The translations under genes and the position numbers were made by a program. Below, piece after piece: positions 14,347-24,862 of a stretch of 64,000 nt of DNA. Below the pieces are notes generated by a model. The model saw only the letters and a program-made list of their open reading frames with translations. It had not been told where the DNA came from and did not search any database. Positions within the stretch are counted from its first letter, which is position 1, and every line of letters starts with the position of its first letter. This stretch comes from Sulfuricella denitrificans (GTDB lineage Bacteria > Pseudomonadota > Gammaproteobacteria > Burkholderiales > Sulfuricellaceae), in contig NSJJ01000005.1 of the NCBI GenBank assembly GCA_002632355.1, positions 1 to 64,000 of the forward strand, in the 5' to 3' direction.

Positions 14347-15333
14347 GTGGAACTCCTCAAACTCAATCTGGCCATTGAGCCGGATTTGCAGAATTTTATC
14401 CAGTTCGTGCTGACTGCCGTCGGTAATCTTGGCGGGAATGTCTTTGTCGCCTCTTTGGCAACGCTCACGCTAATTAAAGAACTTCGTTCCGCCGGTGCTG
14501 GAACGGGTTATCCGCTGCCGGCCACCCTCGAACTGGCAGAGCGCAAGCTGCTGGCACACTGGGGAAATGACGGTCGTCACCTGGCCGTCGCCCTGTTTCC
14601 TGTCCCGCCCGATCCGACTGCCGTCAGGCAGTTGTACCAGCATCTGCAACAGTCCACCGCTCGCGCAGATCCAGCCGTACTGTTGCGTCGCACGGCGGAA
14701 ATGGAACGTTTCCTGAACGAAACACGGGAACGAACCGAACAGGAAATCCGTGCCATGCAAGACGCACTGGAGCAACGCCAGGCCGAGCTCTCCGCCACCA
14801 TCCAGCGCGCAGAAACTGATGCCCTGACCGGCCTGCTCAACCGCCGTGCCTATGACGAAAAGCTGCAACAGGCCTACCGTCGCGTCCTGCGGCAGAAAAA
14901 CGAGTCTCTTTCACTGATTCTGTTTGATCTGGACTATTTCAAGCAGATCAATGATGAATTCGGTCATCAGTATGGTGACGCCTACCTTAACAAAATGGCC
15001 CACGCCATGCGCGAGGTGGTGCGTACCGACGTAGACCTGCTTTTTCGCTTCGGTGGGGACGAATTCGCCATGCTGCTATTTTGCGACGCCCAGATAGCCT
15101 GTAGCAAAGCGATGAAAATCCTGGCACAAATGAATGGCAAAGTCAGCATTGGCATTGCCTGCATTGCGCCCGATGACAGCAATCCGCCCGAGCTGGAGGA
15201 TTTCATCCACACTGCCGACAAGGCCCTCTATGAAGCCAAGAATGCCGGTCGTGGGCGGGTGGTGGTGAATGGCTGCCCCCCTTCCAGCGGAACCGGCTGT
15301 GCTCATTTTTGCCAGCCTCGAGAGACAAAATGA
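14347..15333 (+). CDS. Diguanylate cyclase (GGDEF) heading a stressosome-like operon
   Basis: 328 aa. The N-terminal ~130 residues have no recognised domain. A coiled coil (about 125-160, RTEQEIRAMQDALEQRQAEL) leads into a GGDEF domain (about 163-318) with DALTGLLNRRAY, LFDLDYFKQIND and an intact GGDEF near residue 236. The product-inhibition I-site (RxxD five residues before GGDEF) reads TDVD, so feedback inhibition is probably absent. The start is GTG at 14347, because no ATG is in frame nearby. The stop overlaps the next start (ATGA), tying it to the Rsb-like genes. Confidence 0.88.
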   Translation: MELLKLNLAIEPDLQNFIQFVLTAVGNLGGNVFVASLATLTLIKELRSAGAGTGYPLPATLELAERKLLAHWGNDGRHLAVALFPVPPDPTAVRQLYQHLQQSTARADPAVLLRRTAEMERFLNETRERTEQEIRAMQDALEQRQAELSATIQRAETDALTGLLNRRAYDEKLQQAYRRVLRQKNESLSLILFDLDYFKQINDEFGHQYGDAYLNKMAHAMREVVRTDVDLLFRFGGDEFAMLLFCDAQIACSKAMKILAQMNGKVSIGIACIAPDDSNPPELEDFIHTADKALYEAKNAGRGRVVVNGCPPSSGTGCAHFCQPRETK

Positions 15334-16394
15334 GCCACGTTATCGACAGCATTCGGGAATGCAAGCTGGTGTATAACACCGCCGTGAAAAACGAAAGTGC
15401 AATGATTTTGTTGCGCTCCAAACTGGCAGCGATTTCAACACGTCTTGGCTTTTCCGATCTGAAACGGGAAAATATTGCGCTGGTTGCCTCCGAGATTGTC
15501 AGCAATCAGATCAAATATGCCGAAGGCAAAGGCGTGATCCAGATATGGCAACAACCGGGGCCGGTGCTGGATATTTTCGCTCTCGATTTCGGACCGGGCA
15601 TTCCTGATCTGCACGCCGCCGAGGCCGACGGATTTTCCACGGCAAATACACTGGGCAAGGGCTTGGGCAGCATCCACCGCCTGAGTGACCAGGCCTATCT
15701 CTACTCCCGCCAGGAAGGCAGCAGCCCGGTCCGGCGCTGGAATGGCACTGCGGTGCTGGCCCGTTTTCTGCCAGGGGCCCGATCCAATGGCAACACGGCT
15801 TCTGCAGACAATAATTCCCCCTTCGATATCGGGTTATATTCGCGCGCCCTTTCCGACGACCGCTTCTGCGGGGACCGCGTGTATCTCCACCGCGAAGGCG
15901 CGAAACTACGCTGGCTGCACCTGGATGGACTGGGCCATGGCGAGGAAGCCGAAAAAACCACTGCCAACCTGGCCGGACTGTTGCCCCGCTGCGCCGACCC
16001 TGCTGCCCTGCTAACTTCCGTAGACAAGGAGCTGCACCACACACGGGGTGCCGTGGCGATTATCGGGGAGGTGGACATCGTCGCAAAATCACTGGAAATT
16101 GTCGGGGTGGGAGACATGCACGCGCATTTCTTTGAACAGGAAGCGTCCCACAAATATTCTTTTGCGCCCGGCGTGCTTGGCAAGGAACATAAGTCCGCCG
16201 CCAGCAATATTCTGAAATTCAATCAGCACGGCCTGATCATCACCGCCAGCGACGGCATTCGCAGAAACTGGGATAGCAATAATTTTCCCGGGCTTTTTCA
16301 TGGCCACCCCCAGTTGATCGCCTACCTGCTGGGGAATATCATGGCTCGGATATCAGACGATCAGTCGCTGTGCGTCGTAAGCTTGAATCATTAA
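15330..16394 (+). CDS. RsbT/RsbX-like fusion: serine kinase-type ATPase plus PP2C phosphatase
   Basis: 354 aa. The N-terminal GHKL ATPase (about 1-135) resembles the switch kinase RsbT, with ENIALVASEIVSNQIKYA (N box), DFGPGIPD (G1) and TANTLGKGLGSIHRL (G2). The C-terminal half (about 150-354) is a small PP2C/SpoIIE-type phosphatase like RsbX, with RFCGDRVYLH, HLDGLGHGEEAE and ITASDGI carrying the metal-binding aspartates. In classical stressosomes these are two proteins: one phosphorylates RsbR/RsbS and the other reverses it. The ATG overlaps the GGDEF stop. Confidence 0.85.
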   Translation: MSHVIDSIRECKLVYNTAVKNESAMILLRSKLAAISTRLGFSDLKRENIALVASEIVSNQIKYAEGKGVIQIWQQPGPVLDIFALDFGPGIPDLHAAEADGFSTANTLGKGLGSIHRLSDQAYLYSRQEGSSPVRRWNGTAVLARFLPGARSNGNTASADNNSPFDIGLYSRALSDDRFCGDRVYLHREGAKLRWLHLDGLGHGEEAEKTTANLAGLLPRCADPAALLTSVDKELHHTRGAVAIIGEVDIVAKSLEIVGVGDMHAHFFEQEASHKYSFAPGVLGKEHKSAASNILKFNQHGLIITASDGIRRNWDSNNFPGLFHGHPQLIAYLLGNIMARISDDQSLCVVSLNH

Positions 16395-16418
16395 ATAAAC
16401 AATCCAAGGAGATTTCAC

Positions 16419-17282
16419 ATGGCGCAACAGGTCAGCACCAGCCAGATTCTGGCAGACACGCTCAAGCTCCAGATCGGCAATATTTCTTCCGTGATCGAGA
16501 AACAGGGCCGCACCATTTTTGGTGGCAGCAACCTGCTTGACCCAGACGAAATTACCGATTTCTGCGTCGAATTCCTTGAACTTCTGGTCACCCTGCTCGA
16601 ATCGAAAGATCCTGAAGACGACGCCTCGCCCCAGTTCCACGCACTGGAAATGTATTTCAATAACCTGTCGCGTCAGATTCTGATGCGCGGCGGCCGGGTG
16701 GAAGACCTGGTGCGCTATATTCAGTTCATGCAGCGCACTTTGCTCGAGATGCTGTCGGAAAACAAGAATATCAGCGTCAAGGAAGCACGCGCCATCCTGC
16801 TCTACCTGTCTGGCATATTCAATGAGCTGATTCTCGCAGTGTTCGCTGCCTATCTGGAAGAAAAGGAAAGCACCATTTTTGCGCAGGAAAAGGAGTTGCG
16901 CGAGACTTCCACCCCGATTACCGAAATCTGGGATGGTGTTCTGACCCTGCCCATTATCGGCACACTGGATTCCAGCCGCACCATGATCGTCATGGAAGCG
17001 CTGCTCAACCGCATCGCGCGGGATCGCGCCGAGGCCGTGGTAATGGATCTCACCGGGGTCAAGAATATCGACTCACAGGTCTCCCATCACCTCATCCAGA
17101 TGGTGCGGGCGGTACAATTGATGGGCTCGGATGCCATCATCACCGGAATTCGTCCTGAAATCGCGCGCGCGCTTACCAGTCTAAACATCGACCTGGGCAA
17201 CGTGGTGACTCGCGCCACCCTGTCCGACGGACTGAAAGAAGCCTTCAGGCGTCTCGGCATTCAAGTTTCCAAGCACGCCTGA
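16419..17282 (+). CDS. RsbR-like stressosome scaffold with STAS domain
   Basis: 287 aa. The N-terminal half (about 1-155) is an all-helical RsbRD-type sensor domain, and the C-terminal half (about 170-280) is a STAS domain (TLPIIGTLDSSRTMIVMEALL, VVMDLTGVKNIDSQVSHHLIQ). That arrangement is typical of RsbR, which builds the stressosome core. Serines sit in the loop after the central strand, where RsbR proteins carry phosphorylatable residues. AAGGAG precedes the ATG. The gap from the RsbT/X gene is 24 bp. Confidence 0.87.
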   Translation: MAQQVSTSQILADTLKLQIGNISSVIEKQGRTIFGGSNLLDPDEITDFCVEFLELLVTLLESKDPEDDASPQFHALEMYFNNLSRQILMRGGRVEDLVRYIQFMQRTLLEMLSENKNISVKEARAILLYLSGIFNELILAVFAAYLEEKESTIFAQEKELRETSTPITEIWDGVLTLPIIGTLDSSRTMIVMEALLNRIARDRAEAVVMDLTGVKNIDSQVSHHLIQMVRAVQLMGSDAIITGIRPEIARALTSLNIDLGNVVTRATLSDGLKEAFRRLGIQVSKHA

Positions 17283-17298
17283 ATCCGGGGCTGGCCAG

Positions 17299-17643
17299 TT
17301 GACTGACTTCACCAAACCATCAGGCATGCACCTGACGGAGATCGGGCGCGGCGTGTTTCTGCTCGAACCCAGTCTCAGCCTGGACATCAGTGCCCGCGAC
17401 GAACTCATCATAACGGTGCTGAGCATCATTCAACAGAGCCAGGCAGACAAACTCTACTATGATCTCGCCGACCTTCCCCTGATCGACCCGCTTTATTACC
17501 AGTGGCTCAATATGCTGGCGCGTGCCTGCCGGGCCGTGAATGTCACGATGGCCTGTATTCGCATGCAGCCAACTGCGGCATTTGGACTAACAAGCTACAT
17601 GGAAGGACGCCCGGATTTTTCAGTCGAGCGCGGCGTCCGCTAA
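17299..17643 (+). CDS. RsbS-like single STAS-domain protein
   Basis: 114 aa from TTG 17299, with GGGG about 8 bp upstream; an ATG at 17326 would give a form nine residues shorter. It is a single STAS domain (LTEIGRGVFLLEPSLSLDISARDEL, then KLYYDLADLPLIDPLYYQWL). RsbS normally carries a phosphorylatable serine in the loop after the central strand; here the equivalent stretch is LIDPLYY, with no Ser or Thr. It either does not act by phosphorylation or uses another residue. It is the last gene of the module and convergent with comM. Confidence 0.75.
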   Translation: MTDFTKPSGMHLTEIGRGVFLLEPSLSLDISARDELIITVLSIIQQSQADKLYYDLADLPLIDPLYYQWLNMLARACRAVNVTMACIRMQPTAAFGLTSYMEGRPDFSVERGVR

Positions 17644-19245: not shown

Positions 19246-21252
19246 TTACATTTTTTCCAGTGCCACCGCACCACTCCAGTCTGATGAGGGGGGGGCAGCA
19301 CGTAATTCCGAAATGCGTTGCAAATATATTTCTGCAATCTTGTCTTGCGGAAAAATCTCATGGATCTTTTTCCACAACTCCTCACTTTGATCCCACTGTG
19401 AGGCTTGAAAGGTATCAATCGCATGCCTGCTCAAGGTGATCAGCTCATTATCCTGACAAATGGTATAAATTCCCACCGGCGTGAGCTTTCCCTTGACTAT
19501 GACCACATCCACTTTTCTTAAGTGCTCACACCGTTCCAGCATAGATACTGTAAATTCGCTTAACAGGATATCCGTGCCATAGAGTTTATTGACCCCTTCC
19601 AGGCGTGACGCAAGATTGACCGTATCACCGATAGCGGAATAGTCGAAACGATCATCTGAGCCCATGTTGCCCACGATCGCGCTGCCTGAATGGATCCCGA
19701 TGCGCATGTAAAGCGGCGGCAAACCTTCCGTGGCAAGTGATTCACGCATTGCGGCCATTGCAGCCTGCATTTCAATAGCGGCCTGACAGGCATGATCGGC
19801 ATGTTTGGGATCGTCCAGTGGTGCCCCCCAGAAAGCCATGATGGCGTCGCCGATGAATTTATCCACGGTGCCGTTGTGACGCAAGATGATGCGCGTCATT
19901 TCTGTCAGATGGCGGTTGAGCAAGCGGGAAACATCTTCCGGATTCATTTGTTCTGAAATGCTGGTAAAGCCCTTGAGGTCAGTGAACAGGATCGTGACCT
20001 CCCGCTTCTGCCCGCCCAGCTTCAGTTTCTCGGGGTGGGCGATCATTTCAGCCACCACCTGGGGTGGAACATAATGCTCGAATGCCTGCTTGATTTGCCG
20101 TTTGCGTTGCTGTTCGGCCAGGAAAGCCATACCACCCTGACCAACATACATCAGCACGATCCCAACCAGGGGTGCGCCCGCTGGCAGCCAGATATTACGG
20201 TAGCGGAATAGCCACCAGTCGAGTCCCACAACGGCCATCATCAGGACCAGGCCCAGCAGCGCGCTCAGTACCGGTCGCCAGCGCCACATACCAAGGGCGG
20301 ACAATAGAATGCTTATGGCAAGCAAAGCGTATTTTGCTGCTGGATGGGCCTGCGTCAGGGTGATGCCGGTCAGCACGTTTTCCAGGATGCTGGCATGCAA
20401 CTCCACACCGGGCGTGAGCCAGCGGGTTGAAGCCGTAAATGGCGTGGAAAAAGTATCCGCCTGTGCAGCGCCGGCATCGGGGCTGGCTTTGGTGTCTCGC
20501 CCCACCAGCACGATCTGGTCGCGGAAAAATTCTTTTGGCAGGAATTTTTCCGGATCGAGTGCCTGATAATAGGAGACATAAGGGAAAGTATGATCCGGCC
20601 CCAGATAGCGAATCATGGGGGGTTTCGGCAGTCTGACAGGTGGCAGCATCCCGGGACGGGTCTGATTGAACTTGTCCAGGATGACGCGCCAGAATGCATC
20701 CCTGTTGTCCGGCAACTGGCGAATGATCATATCGCCATCCAGCGTCATGGTTGCCAGTCCGCCGATTGCACCCGCCTGGGTAAAGTCGCGCAAAGGATCG
20801 ACTCGCAGCCATTGACGGGCATATGTGGTTTCCTGGAAAACCCAGTCTGCGGCCAGTACCACATTGCCCGCCCGCCTGATCGCATCTGCCAGTTGGCTAT
20901 CCTGATCCGGAGTGGAGGCGACGTCCATGATCAGGTCGAATGCGACAACTGCAGCACCCGCCTCACTTAACCTGTCCACCAGTTCGGCGTGCAATCCCCT
21001 TGGCCATGGCCAGCGCAAGCCAATCTCGGCGAATGAAGGCTCGTCGATGCCGATAATGGTAATCGGTAGTGTGGACTGCATGGGTGCGGTATGCACCGAT
21101 AGCAGGTCAAAGCCTTTTTTTTCCAGCAACTGCCACTGGGAACTCAGCCCCGCCAAGGCTAACAAGACGAAGGTGACAAGGGAAAGCAGGGGCGTTTTTA
21201 GTTCAGGGCGAAAATGGACACGCCCCCACAGCTCAGAAACGATATTTGGCAT
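19246..21252 (-). CDS. CHASE2-domain adenylate cyclase
   Basis: 668 aa inner-membrane protein. It has one N-terminal membrane segment (about 20-40), a periplasmic CHASE2 sensor (about 45-320), three closely spaced membrane segments (about 325-400) and a class III cyclase domain (about 425-600). The metal aspartates are in LFTDLKGFT and DKFIGDAIMAFWG. The Lys of that motif and the Asp in AIGDTVNLASRLE specify adenine, and the transition-state Asn and Arg are present. cAMP synthesis is therefore predicted. Its start overlaps the end of the FecR/TPR gene by 20 bp, so the two are co-translated. Confidence 0.92.
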   Translation of the reverse strand: MPNIVSELWGRVHFRPELKTPLLSLVTFVLLALAGLSSQWQLLEKKGFDLLSVHTAPMQSTLPITIIGIDEPSFAEIGLRWPWPRGLHAELVDRLSEAGAAVVAFDLIMDVASTPDQDSQLADAIRRAGNVVLAADWVFQETTYARQWLRVDPLRDFTQAGAIGGLATMTLDGDMIIRQLPDNRDAFWRVILDKFNQTRPGMLPPVRLPKPPMIRYLGPDHTFPYVSYYQALDPEKFLPKEFFRDQIVLVGRDTKASPDAGAAQADTFSTPFTASTRWLTPGVELHASILENVLTGITLTQAHPAAKYALLAISILLSALGMWRWRPVLSALLGLVLMMAVVGLDWWLFRYRNIWLPAGAPLVGIVLMYVGQGGMAFLAEQQRKRQIKQAFEHYVPPQVVAEMIAHPEKLKLGGQKREVTILFTDLKGFTSISEQMNPEDVSRLLNRHLTEMTRIILRHNGTVDKFIGDAIMAFWGAPLDDPKHADHACQAAIEMQAAMAAMRESLATEGLPPLYMRIGIHSGSAIVGNMGSDDRFDYSAIGDTVNLASRLEGVNKLYGTDILLSEFTVSMLERCEHLRKVDVVIVKGKLTPVGIYTICQDNELITLSRHAIDTFQASQWDQSEELWKKIHEIFPQDKIAEIYLQRISELRAAPPSSDWSGAVALEKM

Positions 21253-24200
21253 CTATTCCATAAAAGGTGGAATTATTCTTCGAGAAAACATTGGCCACCA
21301 CGCCATCGAAAGACCAGTGCTTGTCCTGCGTTTCCCAATAAGCCCTCAAACCCGCGTCCCATCCGGCATGAAGCTTCTGGCTATAATCCGTGTATGTATT
21401 GGGGTTGTTCACGTCCTCCGACCTTTCCACCCTGGAATAACGTTCTCCGCGCCAGATTGCCAGCGCATTGATAAACAGGCGCCGCGGGCCAGTCCAGGTT
21501 GTACCGAGAATAAACTGGTGGCGCGCCAGATAGGGAATGGGAAACCCTTCAACGCTTCTGTCATTAATCAGTTCAGAGTCGGTGTAGATATAGCGCGAAT
21601 AAATCGACCAGCTCGGGTTAAGTATATGGTTCAAGGCTGCCCCGGCAGAAATGGCTTGTCCTTCGTTGAATTGTGGCGTGCCCTCCAAGGCATCTACGCT
21701 GGCTGCATTGATCAGTCTATTGCCTTTGAGCTTATCCAGGCCTTCCAGATAACTGCTCTGGATATCCGAAACCTGGCCATTCTTGACCCTGCGCTTATCG
21801 AAGAACAGCGTGGAGAAAGTATGGGGGTTCCATTCCCATTCCATTTGCGCTTTTGACCGGACGATACGCCCACCAGGCGAAACCAGTTGAGCGTCGACCG
21901 GGATGCCCGCAGTGGTGACTGAACCTAAAGTGCTGACAGAAGCCGGGCGTGTCCATTCCTGATAGGCAGCACGCAACAGAGCGCTTCCCCAGTGCTGGAC
22001 CAACCCAAGTCTTTTGTTGATGCGTTCTTCAGTATGCTCGTTGTGGGCATAGTCAAAGGTTTCAGGATAACCCACAAGCCCAAGGCCTGAATCGGCGGTT
22101 TTGGTATAGCGTTGACTGAAAAGATCGGTTTGCAGCAACAGGGTATCGCTGAGCGAGAATCGCCCCGAAATATATGCATCGCGAGAACGATCTTTGGTGG
22201 TAATGTTGTTGACCACTGGATTGTCGGGATAGCTTGGTATCGTGATCGCCAGTGCCTGCGGGGTTTCAAGCGAGGCTGATTCATACCCCCAGCTGAATTC
22301 GGTTTTGTCGCCCAGCGCAAAAGAGTGCCGTAACTGATATTCACGCGTATCCGTGTTGGTCAAGTAATTCAGTTCTCCATCCGGGGTGTGGCCCGAGAGA
22401 CCCGTTTTTTCCTTGCCGTCTCCAATTTTTATCCAGAGTTGAGCGCTGGGTGAAAATTTGTAATTACCGCCCATATCCACCCGGTCTGCTCTATAGGTGA
22501 CAGGAAAGGTTCCGAGCTTTCCGTCGGTATCAGTCTGGGTGGCGAAGCCAAACAAACCCAACTCATGAACGGGGTTTGCACCCAGTGCAGCGGTAAGTGT
22601 AGTACTGTCTGCGCTGATAGCCGAAGTACCGGGATCGAGTCTCACATGCCCGGCATCGAAAAAATAAGCCAGCGGGAACAGCGAGTTCGAATACCCGTTG
22701 GCTGTGATATAAGGCTGATATGCCTTCATTTCTTCCTGATAGTTGTAGCGCACACCGGCATTAAAATAATTTCCGGGTTTCGGCAGCAGGGTCTGAAACC
22801 GGTTACTGCCGCCAAACGCCGTGGGGTCGACCAGATAGCCCTGGAACAACTCGGAATTCTTGTTAAACAGGCTGGGGTAACGATCCGCCAGAAACAAATG
22901 GCTGCCGCCCCAGAAGGGGGAATAGGACTCCTGAGCATGATTGAACGCCCACTCTTCCAGGCCGAAAAAAGCCAAAGCGCTGCCCAGATTGGCCGTCCCT
23001 TTCTGATCGTTGGCTATCTGGTTCAGGGATTTCAGGTAAGGCATGCGCTGCATGGCCTCCCGCCCTTCGGCGATGGCCTTGCCGGATTCAAAGTAGTCTC
23101 CATGAATGATACTTGCCAGCATGTAGGGAAATGGATCCTTCGGATCCAGTATTTTGGCACGGTCTAACTCTTCCAGAGCACGCTCGACACGGTCCATCTG
23201 GTAGTAAGCCACTGCTGTATACATGTGCACCCGGGCGTAGCGAGGCTCGATGACGCTGGCTTTGAGGAAAAACTCCAGTGCTTGTTGCGTGTTACCACGC
23301 TTGAGTTCCAGCAATCCCCGACCAGTCAACGCAACATAGTCGCCCGGATTGTCCTGAAGCGCCTTGCCATATTCAGCTTCAGCGTGTTTGAAATTGTTGG
23401 CGAAGGTTTCCAGCGTCGCCAACTCGCCACGATAGCCCGCTCCGTGGGGATTGATAGCAAGCGCCTGATTTAGGTCTGAGCGACCATTTTTGATATCCTC
23501 CCTCTCGCTATTAACCGCACCCAGGCCATACCACCCCCTGTCGTCCTCGGGTTTAAGGGCGATCGCTGCCAGATAGGCGGACTCGGCACCCTTGGCATCG
23601 CCCTGTTTCCTGGCCAGCGCCCCCATGTTCAGGTAAGCATCCACGATATGGGGTGTTTGCGTCAGGGCAAGCTTGAGCTGACTTTGACTTTCTGCATTTT
23701 GATCAGAAAACAGGTAAACACGCGCCAACTGGCTTGCAATACGCGGATTACCGGGAAATCTTTGACGGGCCTGCTGGAGTAATTCACTGGCTTTGCCTTG
23801 TTCGCCGCTGTATACCATCAGATCAGACAGGATCAGATAAGCGGCAGGTTGTTTGAGTTCCGGCGTTGCAACAAGCCGCTGCAAAATATCCAGTGCGGAC
23901 TTGAACTGCCCCCCCTGAATCAGGGCAACCACACGTCCCAGAGCCGTCAATTCTCTTTCACCATCCACCGGAATCCGGGTGAAATAAGATTCGGCTTTAT
24001 TCACATCTCCGCGGTGCAATTCCACATAAGCCATCCCCAGCAATGCGCCAGCTGCATCAGGCTGCTGCTCCAGAGCTGCGCGGTATTGCTGCTCAGCCAA
24101 AGTCCATTGCGCCAAATCCACATGAATATTTCCGCGCTGTACCTGGCTGATGAAATCGCCGCCCTTTAACCCGGCCAGTTCCTGGCGCAACTTCGTCACG

Positions 24201-24862
24201 GAATCATCATGCAGGTAAATGTGACGCAAGGTTTCGACACTATAAGCACTAACCCATTGGACGCGGTCGTGTGGATTGCTGATAATAATCTTGACCGGTG
24301 CTTTTCCGACTTCCGCGATTGCCTGCTCGTTTCTGTTTACCGTCACTCGGCCCTGCTCGTTGTAAAAATCCACCGTCCCGCTCAGAACCGTCAGGGTCGA
24401 TTTACCACTTTCATCCACGTCCATTTCCCAGTCTGTGCCGCGAATGGCAGCAGTCGCAGAAGGCGTTTCCATGGTCAGGCGATTCGATATTTGCTTCGAC
24501 TGCGTCCAGCTTCTTCCCTTATTCAGGCGTACTGTCGTGTCTTGTTTATTCTGGGGATCCTGCACCTGCTTGATTTGCAACTGACTATTCTGGTTGAGGC
24601 TAAGCTGGGTTTGATCTATGAAAAGAAGTGCCATGCGGCTCAAGTCACCGGTTCTGACAAAATTTCCCGGAAACAGCCCCTGATTTACGCTCGCTGAACT
24701 CCACTGCTGTGTATTTTCGGGTCGATATTGCCCAACGCCCTTGAGGTTCACGATTTCTGCAATGGCCGGGCCAAGGATTGCCTGGGCGCTGACGGGAACA
24801 AGGAAAATCGCCAGAAAGGCAACTGCCTTCATACCCTGCTGGATACGCTGAATGTCCATCAT
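21233..24862 (-). CDS. Exported FecR/TPR protein with C-terminal outer-membrane-like region
   Basis: 1209 aa. A signal peptide (about 1-28, ending SAQA) precedes a FecR domain (about 40-150, including VRTGDLSRMALLFID and TPSATAAIRGTDWEMDVDE). Around ten TPR-like repeats follow (about 225-590). The last ~500 residues are rich in short aromatic beta strands and end in YRF, as outer-membrane beta-barrels do. GGGAGG lies ahead of ATG 24862. It is paired with the CHASE2 cyclase gene, whose sensor faces the same compartment. Function is unknown; a surface or periplasmic sensor that signals to the cyclase is my inference. Confidence 0.8.
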   Translation of the reverse strand: MMDIQRIQQGMKAVAFLAIFLVPVSAQAILGPAIAEIVNLKGVGQYRPENTQQWSSASVNQGLFPGNFVRTGDLSRMALLFIDQTQLSLNQNSQLQIKQVQDPQNKQDTTVRLNKGRSWTQSKQISNRLTMETPSATAAIRGTDWEMDVDESGKSTLTVLSGTVDFYNEQGRVTVNRNEQAIAEVGKAPVKIIISNPHDRVQWVSAYSVETLRHIYLHDDSVTKLRQELAGLKGGDFISQVQRGNIHVDLAQWTLAEQQYRAALEQQPDAAGALLGMAYVELHRGDVNKAESYFTRIPVDGERELTALGRVVALIQGGQFKSALDILQRLVATPELKQPAAYLILSDLMVYSGEQGKASELLQQARQRFPGNPRIASQLARVYLFSDQNAESQSQLKLALTQTPHIVDAYLNMGALARKQGDAKGAESAYLAAIALKPEDDRGWYGLGAVNSEREDIKNGRSDLNQALAINPHGAGYRGELATLETFANNFKHAEAEYGKALQDNPGDYVALTGRGLLELKRGNTQQALEFFLKASVIEPRYARVHMYTAVAYYQMDRVERALEELDRAKILDPKDPFPYMLASIIHGDYFESGKAIAEGREAMQRMPYLKSLNQIANDQKGTANLGSALAFFGLEEWAFNHAQESYSPFWGGSHLFLADRYPSLFNKNSELFQGYLVDPTAFGGSNRFQTLLPKPGNYFNAGVRYNYQEEMKAYQPYITANGYSNSLFPLAYFFDAGHVRLDPGTSAISADSTTLTAALGANPVHELGLFGFATQTDTDGKLGTFPVTYRADRVDMGGNYKFSPSAQLWIKIGDGKEKTGLSGHTPDGELNYLTNTDTREYQLRHSFALGDKTEFSWGYESASLETPQALAITIPSYPDNPVVNNITTKDRSRDAYISGRFSLSDTLLLQTDLFSQRYTKTADSGLGLVGYPETFDYAHNEHTEERINKRLGLVQHWGSALLRAAYQEWTRPASVSTLGSVTTAGIPVDAQLVSPGGRIVRSKAQMEWEWNPHTFSTLFFDKRRVKNGQVSDIQSSYLEGLDKLKGNRLINAASVDALEGTPQFNEGQAISAGAALNHILNPSWSIYSRYIYTDSELINDRSVEGFPIPYLARHQFILGTTWTGPRRLFINALAIWRGERYSRVERSEDVNNPNTYTDYSQKLHAGWDAGLRAYWETQDKHWSFDGVVANVFSKNNSTFYGIDAKYRF

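Follow-up and report, generated by a model that had tools for sequence, protein, structure and literature searches.

A stressosome-derived four-gene module with a diguanylate cyclase as candidate output in Sulfuricella denitrificans

Introduction

Four consecutive genes of Sulfuricella denitrificans, at 14347-17643 on the + strand of the first 64,000 nucleotides of contig NSJJ01000005.1 (GenBank assembly GCA_002632355.1; this whole stretch is called the window below), encode a diguanylate cyclase (DGC), a GHKL kinase fused to a PP2C/SpoIIE phosphatase (TX), an RsbR-like protein (R) and an RsbS-like protein (S). The DGC-TX-R-S module is classed here as a stressosome-derived partner switch and not a canonical RST stressosome, and a partner switch with the DGC as its output is the reading that, with modest confidence, we prefer. 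The idea that a stressosome may control a DGC is not new, nor are polypeptides that unite kinase and phosphatase, which are known from HsbR and CrsR.

A stressosome that controls a DGC has been published for Moorella (Quin et al. 2012, as cited in PMC12143880 and PMC4976288). In Moorella thermoacetica an RsbR/RsbS scaffold, the kinase RsbT and an RsbX-like phosphatase are associated with the DGC MtG, which carries an RsbU_N receptor domain and a GAF domain (PMC12143880). DGC-controlling stressosomes have also been proposed for Vibrio, Chromobacterium and Herbaspirillum, whose RSTX modules comprise RsbR, RsbS, a separate RsbT and a single-domain RsbX phosphatase, with a cyclic di-GMP (c-di-GMP) output encoded downstream; according to the available text most of the outputs considered have no RsbU_N domain, and no interaction between RsbT and the output is described for Vibrio (PMC9237108). 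The SiaABCD system of Pseudomonas aeruginosa consists of a GHKL kinase (SiaB), a separate PP2C phosphatase (SiaA), one STAS-like substrate (SiaC) and a DGC (SiaD; PMC7647112). HsbR-HsbA-HsbD and CrsR-CrsA each pair a STAS protein with a kinase and phosphatase in one polypeptide, and HsbR, a REC-PP2C-kinase protein with links to FlgM and RpoS, has a DGC as its output (PMC6482189).

The module resembles each of these systems in part. Like the Moorella system it has an RsbR/RsbS pair, a kinase, an RsbX-like phosphatase and a DGC, but it has neither a separate RsbT nor RsbU_N, its DGC begins with a different domain, its kinase and phosphatase are fused, and its RsbS lacks the serine. With the RSTX modules it shares RsbR, RsbS, an RsbX-like phosphatase, a probable c-di-GMP output and an output protein without RsbU_N; in contrast to them it places the output gene first and the kinase within TX. 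The same fusion architecture, together with RsbR and RsbS, occurs in four R-S-T-(GHKL+PP2C) operons (L068-L071), which, unlike the module, keep a separate RsbT and a serine-bearing RsbS. SiaABCD has the same kinds of components, but where it has separate SiaA and SiaB acting on a single SiaC-type substrate the module has fused TX and two STAS proteins. The REC-PP2C-HATPase order of HsbR and CrsR likewise differs from that of TX, which is GHKL-PP2C with no REC domain. Compared with a canonical stressosome, the module is without a separate RsbT and without the RsbS serine, and the other testable features are present. A literature search limited to titles and the beginnings of abstracts, with most subscription journals outside its scope, returned no description of a DGC-TX-R-S module.

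The Module and Its Distribution

Pfam searches, solved structures and profile comparisons confirmed all four open reading frames (ORFs) and their assignments, so that the four-gene stressosome-type module proposed in an initial annotation of this DNA stands (Table 1). The stop codon of the DGC gene overlaps a start codon of TX and the flanking genes, which encode a VIT family protein and ComM, are oriented oppositely; the four genes therefore look like a compact operon, and the overlap suggests that translation of DGC and TX is coupled. The TX frame is open from a TTG at 15309 (15309-16394), from which its residues are numbered here, and the overlap makes the ATG at 15330 the more likely start. 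As the initial annotation had stated, neither RsbU nor a sigma factor is encoded among the four operon genes, no genome-wide sigma factor search having been made.

When named genomes were scanned with a TX alignment, 80 of the 101 relatives detected were retained, corresponding to 79 distinct loci (L120-L198). Gene order and strand are complete in 70 of these and the remaining nine, which lie at contig ends, are without the last one or two genes; the arrangement is therefore not due to chance. Among 200 relatives, TX matches were found in 37 genomes, 29 of them orthologues (at least 47% identity, own genome included) and eight distant, and the orthologues show DGC-TX-R-S in one direction wherever contigs allow. 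The named loci and the loci of this other genome set partly overlap, and the two counts are not independent. Record titles, counted by eye, carry the names of sulfur- or iron-oxidising groups for 45 of the 79 loci (Sulfuricella/Sulfurimicrobium/Sulfuricellaceae, Gallionella/Gallionellaceae/Gallionellales, Sideroxydans, Thiobacillus/Thiobacillaceae, Hydrogenophilus/Hydrogenophilaceae, Thioalkalivibrio, Sulfuricaulis, Chromatiales and Halorhodospira) and broad labels only for the other 34. Sulfuricella, Gallionella, Sideroxydans, Thiobacillus and Thioalkalivibrio are sulfur or iron oxidisers, and in such hosts the module would tie stress sensing to c-di-GMP and, by extension, to biofilm formation or motility. 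One copy (L177) lies on a contig labelled Anaerolineae, with a TX 48% identical to that of the window; a binning error is possible there.

Table 1. Features of the DGC-TX-R-S module (positions in the window).
Feature	Position	Strand	Basis
Diguanylate cyclase (GGDEF) gene, candidate output enzyme, GTG start	14347..15333	+	Pfam; GGDEF motif in 79/79 named loci
DGC N-terminal domain, residues 1-107, b-a-a-b-b-b-a, predicted GHKL-like fold without lid or ATP motifs	14347..14667	+	AlphaFold2, VIA
Helical linker, probable coiled coil, from N-terminal domain to GGDEF	14668..14808	+	Sequence by eye; coiled coil inferred
GGDEF catalytic domain, residues 155-303, RxxxD instead of canonical RxxD I-site	14809..15255	+	Pfam
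ATGA overlap, DGC stop and probable TX start	15330..15333	+	Sequence; translational coupling inferred
TX, GHKL kinase fused to PP2C/SpoIIE phosphatase	15330..16394	+	Pfam; sequence matches to solved structures
TX GHKL domain, ATP motifs intact (E62, N66, D93, G95, G97, G116)	15360..15773	+	79/79 loci
TX PP2C domain, aspartates intact (D189, D206, D315, D350, D351)	15816..16382	+	79/79 loci
RsbR-like sensor/scaffold protein	16419..17282	+	Pfam STAS; solved relatives
N-terminal sensor domain of RsbR-like protein, RsbRD_N-like (weak)	16419..16883	+	PF14361
STAS domain of RsbR-like protein	16917..17192	+	Pfam
Ser219 codon of RsbR-like protein, presumed counterpart of B. subtilis RsbR Thr171	17073..17075	+	Alignment; IDS/VDT motif
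RsbS-like single STAS protein, TTG start	17299..17643	+	Profile comparison; AlphaFold2 model
Pro64 codon of RsbS-like protein, position of B. subtilis RsbS phospho-Ser59	17488..17490	+	Alignment

The TX Fusion and the Missing RsbT

TX carries a kinase and a phosphatase in one polypeptide, as had been proposed from the sequence. In a 40-member family HATPase_c_2 was recognised in all 40 proteins and SpoIIE in 25 at E<=0.01; when the own genome was searched as DNA, HATPase_c_2 reached 27.5 bits at TX, just above the cut-off, and SpoIIE was not reported there. The phosphatase half matches PDB 3zt9 (E 8.3e-8), which we take to be Moorella RsbX, and RsbX 3w40 (E 0.011). The GHKL residues E62 to G97 and all five PP2C aspartates of Table 1 are conserved in every one of the 79 named loci, leaving the metal site of the RsbX-like phosphatase intact within the fusion. 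SypE is another kinase-and-phosphatase protein.

No separate RsbT gene lies between or beside the four module genes. A profile built from 14 classical RsbT proteins, at a threshold (E<=1e-12) at which weaker kinases would not show, matched TX only among all 34 candidates scored in the own genome, and produced a single match, at TX, in each of the other module genomes among 120 relatives. Among relatives and within the same class, classical operons usually have the order R-S-T-X or R-S-T-T2-X. Two genomes, G225 and G281, hold a classical R-S-T operon (L229, L233) plus the RsbT-less module (L102, L094).

The initial annotation had described an RsbT-like kinase fused to an RsbX-like phosphatase; the fusion is borne out, while the identity of the kinase half as RsbT probably is not. 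As to the distribution of the fusion, for which a survey had been suggested at that time, the module recurs in the 79 named loci and the fusion itself is not unique to it, a GHKL domain being joined to X beside a separate RsbT in the classical operons L068-L071. Trees of GHKL domains group TX with these four fused domains and not with RsbT (support 99/96 in a first tree and 98/94 in a second, from which T_L237 and six of the earlier TX rows had been removed), and a module profile scores them above RsbT in all four operons (85/60, 71/61, 73/55 and 71/54 bits for fused domain and RsbT, respectively). A first approximately unbiased (AU) test rejected TX with RsbT (p 0.003), although its grouping had been named after the first tree was seen and also split other groups; in a fairer topology test a position of the TX GHKL domain on the RsbT side was not rejected (p-AU 0.27), which weakens any claim that the kinase is certainly not RsbT. 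The ancestor of the TX kinase domain is therefore probably, but not certainly, the second kinase that is joined to the phosphatase in ordinary operons. In another operon, L072:4247-7886, the genes run R-S-(kinase+X fusion)-histidine kinase and a separate RsbT was not seen; the kinase half of this fusion clusters with RsbT (95/77 in the first tree, 98/88 in the second), and the fusion is therefore probably a second, independent one.

The RsbR-Like and RsbS-Like Proteins

R combines an N-terminal sensor domain with an RsbR-type STAS domain. The latter scores 49.1 bits in Pfam, and the best matches of the protein among solved structures are RsbR chains of Vibrio and Listeria stressosomes, led by Vibrio vulnificus chain 7o0i_B (E 1.6e-32), with 7b0u_A at E 7.4e-31. 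The match of the sensor domain to RsbRD_N (PF14361) is weak: at E<=0.01 it is recognised in 16 of the 29 members, and in the window it reaches 19.5 bits against a cut-off of 24.3. Judging by the IDS/VDT motif, Ser219 is presumably the counterpart of B. subtilis RsbR Thr171. The position holds Ser in 72 of 73 loci, with one gap, and in another set of 42 rows there are 39 Ser and three Thr.

S is a single-STAS protein that was linked to RsbS by profile and fold. A phmmer search of solved structures with the protein found no RsbS, and its use as a single-sequence query of genome contigs found no relatives. Profile comparison with four classical RsbS proteins (hhalign) gave 97.1% and E 5.2e-11, and the structure nearest to its AlphaFold2 model (predicted local distance difference test score, pLDDT, 87.6) is B. 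subtilis RsbS 6jhk_B (Z 12.8, root-mean-square deviation [rmsd] 2.5 A, 105 residues aligned), with Moorella RsbS also among the closest.

In the window, proline (Pro64) stands at the position of Ser59. Across 70 named loci there are 32 Pro, two Ser, two Thr and 34 other residues, so that in 66 of the 70 the position of phospho-Ser59 is occupied by neither Ser nor Thr; 39 aligned members, counted by eye, include no Ser and four Thr. These two sets replace an initial one whose 45 rows came from 41 loci and the window and included alternate-frame or gap rows, in which no Ser was seen at the site either. Of the 16 classical RsbS proteins used as a control, 13 carry Ser by eye, a figure that may be biased towards Ser as nine of the 16 loci were found with a Ser-bearing query, and the residue of L237 is not clearly readable. 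L074 has Leu and L072 has Lys, and the B. subtilis sites are described as not conserved in V. brasiliensis RsbS (PMC4976288), so absence of the serine is not unique to the module.

In B. subtilis, phosphorylation of RsbS Ser59 accompanies release of RsbT, and S59A strains still signal; the authors of that work considered that Ser59 phosphorylation may be an evolutionary addition (PMC3944199). The module, in which the RsbS serine is mostly Pro and the RsbR serine is kept, bears on the same choice between a fundamental and an added layer of control.

The Diguanylate Cyclase and Its N-Terminal Domain

The DGC matches PF00990 with 123.8 bits, and its GGDEF motif is intact in all 79 named loci. The canonical inhibitory I-site of diguanylate cyclases has RxxD spacing; here R226-xxx-D230 precedes GGDEF in 79/79 loci, and the variable position 227 is Arg in six of them. 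The earlier suggestion that c-di-GMP is the likely output of the module is supported.

Residues 1-118 match no convincing Pfam family in 26 members (best E 0.031). RsbU_N is absent from the Pfam matches of the window DGC and of the 26 N-termini, HATPase families are absent from the matches of the latter at E<=1, and no N box, DxGxG motif or ATP lid was seen by eye in their alignment. An AlphaFold2 model of the N-terminus (pLDDT 87.1) shows a strand, two helices, three strands and a helix; towards the linker the model has helices at 90-107 and 109-117, the second under pLDDT 50. The top match of the model in VIA is RsbW 6m36_G (Z 9.5, rmsd 2.2, 82 aligned, residues 1-85), followed by RsbW 6m37_A (Z 9.2), SiaB 6kko_B (7.0), an anti-sigma factor (8jzt_B, 6.7) and LvrC 9qih_A (6.0), with mostly clamp proteins at Z <=5.3. 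VIA warns that Z below 8 may reflect a common arrangement only; just the RsbW rows exceed this value, and the structural weight therefore lies on RsbW. To our knowledge SiaD carries no GHKL-like domain. A link at the level of sequence between the DGC N-terminus and GHKL proteins was sought and dropped: profile comparison (hhalign) with GHKL families gave nothing, and the output histidine kinases of L072 and L074 did not match it with their N-terminal parts either.

The domain belongs to the module alone within the genomes searched. It has 16 matches in 369 genomes of the class, all 16 beside TX. The 200 relatives include 29 TX-orthologue genomes, of which 27 carry the domain and two have DGC genes cut by contig ends; the best 12 (class genomes) or 22 (relatives) candidates per genome were scored, and weak copies of the domain may escape such a scan. 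A 28th match among the relatives is a broken DGC remnant in G010 (L246:6172-6506), consisting of two gene pieces adjoining a VIT gene, and tblastn found no match to TX, R or S within the 13 kb fetched around it. This single case fits the notion that the DGC is not kept without its partners. The restriction of the domain to the module supports the initial proposal that it is a candidate docking site, and from its predicted fold it is possible that it is a pseudo-switch-kinase that docks on the STAS core. Fusion of an RsbT-like GHKL domain to a stressosome-linked output does occur, as is shown by a histidine kinase beside a classical stressosome operon (L069:8077-9873) whose N-terminus matches HATPase_c_2 (59.2 bits) and a classical RsbT-type profile (99.8%); L069 also holds a separate RsbT and a GHKL-PP2C fusion.

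Proposed Mechanism and Alternative Readings

In the mechanism that we propose, R and S would build a STAS scaffold in which R senses through its RsbRD_N-like domain. The GHKL domain of TX would phosphorylate Ser219 of R and its PP2C domain would remove the phosphate, while S, not switchable at the Ser59 position, would serve for scaffolding or docking. The N-terminal domain of the DGC, with its predicted switch-kinase fold and no ATP site, would anchor the enzyme to the STAS core, and the signal state of R, that is its conformation and the phosphorylation of Ser219, would determine whether the enzyme is kept inactive or set free. Release or re-orientation, transmitted by the helical linker, would allow the GGDEF domains to dimerise and produce c-di-GMP. 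The scheme is modelled on SiaB/SiaC and RsbT/RsbU: SiaB, acting upstream of the DGC SiaD, forms a complex with SiaC that dissociates once SiaC is phosphorylated (PMC7647112), and RsbU is activated by RsbT through a linker coiled coil (PMC12143880).

In its strictest form, the place of RsbT would be taken by a dead, lid-less switch-kinase fold within the DGC that docks on R and S as RsbT does, the effector being captured and released there with no diffusible kinase, RsbS frozen at Ser59 and RsbR alone written and erased by TX; this version is advanced tentatively, as an idea more likely wrong than right. If it were true, the module would be a natural instance of stressosome signalling without phosphorylation at RsbS Ser59. 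With only four proteins and a candidate docking domain, DGC-TX-R-S is a compact system in which the coupling of Gram-negative stressosomes to their outputs could be studied. What sets the module apart in sequence is the lack of a separate RsbT, an RsbS serine that is mostly Pro and a DGC N-terminus exclusive to it in the genomes searched.

Several points weigh against this interpretation, in addition to the low Z scores of most VIA matches, the empty hhalign comparison and the weak domain copies that may have escaped the scan. The GHKL-like fold of the DGC N-terminus comes from one predicted model, and Foldseek returned no significant match for that model, with RsbW at E 2.2. The window proteins score below the Pfam cut-offs for both TX domains (HATPase_c_2 24.8 bits, SpoIIE 17.8 bits) and for the STAS domain of S (13.9 bits). 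Covariation of the DGC N-terminus with S, R or TX singled out no partner among 67 operons (effective depth ~40). Finally, V. brasiliensis RsbS was thiophosphorylated in vitro despite lacking the Bacillus sites (PMC4976288), and the RsbS-like protein could be phosphorylated at another residue.

The strongest alternative, though on present evidence a rather unlikely one, is a plain RsbT-type stressosome in which the TX GHKL domain, as a functional RsbT, would be released from R and S, bind the N-terminus and linker of the DGC and activate it, the DGC domain then being the receptor of TX. The intact ATP motifs of TX agree with this, as do the topology test that leaves its GHKL domain free to stand on the RsbT side and the precedents of Moorella MtG and RsbU (PMC12143880, PMC4976288). 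The N-terminus of the DGC, however, has no RsbU_N match and is modelled as an alpha/beta domain, whereas the domain of RsbU is a four-helix one (PMC12143880); the trees place TX with the phosphatase-fused GHKL domains, and S lacks the serine whose phosphorylation accompanies release of RsbT in Bacillus.

Improbable, though with precedents, is a switch of the SiaABCD or HsbRA kind, in which the DGC linker would directly read the phosphorylation of a STAS protein, R or S, and no higher-order stressosome would form. SiaC activates SiaD (PMC8457831, PMC7647112) and HsbA-P activates HsbD (PMC6482189), and in each of these systems a DGC is combined with a STAS protein and with kinase and phosphatase functions. 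They have single STAS proteins, however, whereas R and S are an RsbR/RsbS pair by sequence or fold, and TX has no receiver domain and a domain order opposite to that of HsbR.

That the DGC is a conserved neighbour only, with the real target of R, S and TX encoded elsewhere, is very improbable: other partner-switch genes exist in the genome, but the DGC gene is present in 79/79 named loci and overlaps TX in the window, its N-terminal domain was found with the module alone in the genomes searched, and it is broken in the one genome seen without the module.

Other Partner-Switch and Signalling Genes

The own genome gave four SpoIIE-family matches in a DNA search, and the supposition that it has no other partner switch proved false. 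One of the four, on contig C32 (L243:2846-4869), is a REC-PP2C-HATPase protein of 566 aa followed by a STAS protein of 109 aa, a pair resembling CrsR/HsbR-HsbA. Within the window, a gene for a CHASE2-adenylate/guanylate cyclase (19246-21252, - strand) lies two genes downstream of the module, and adjoining it is a very long ORF (21233-24862), the product of which resembles a FecR/TPR protein by eye.

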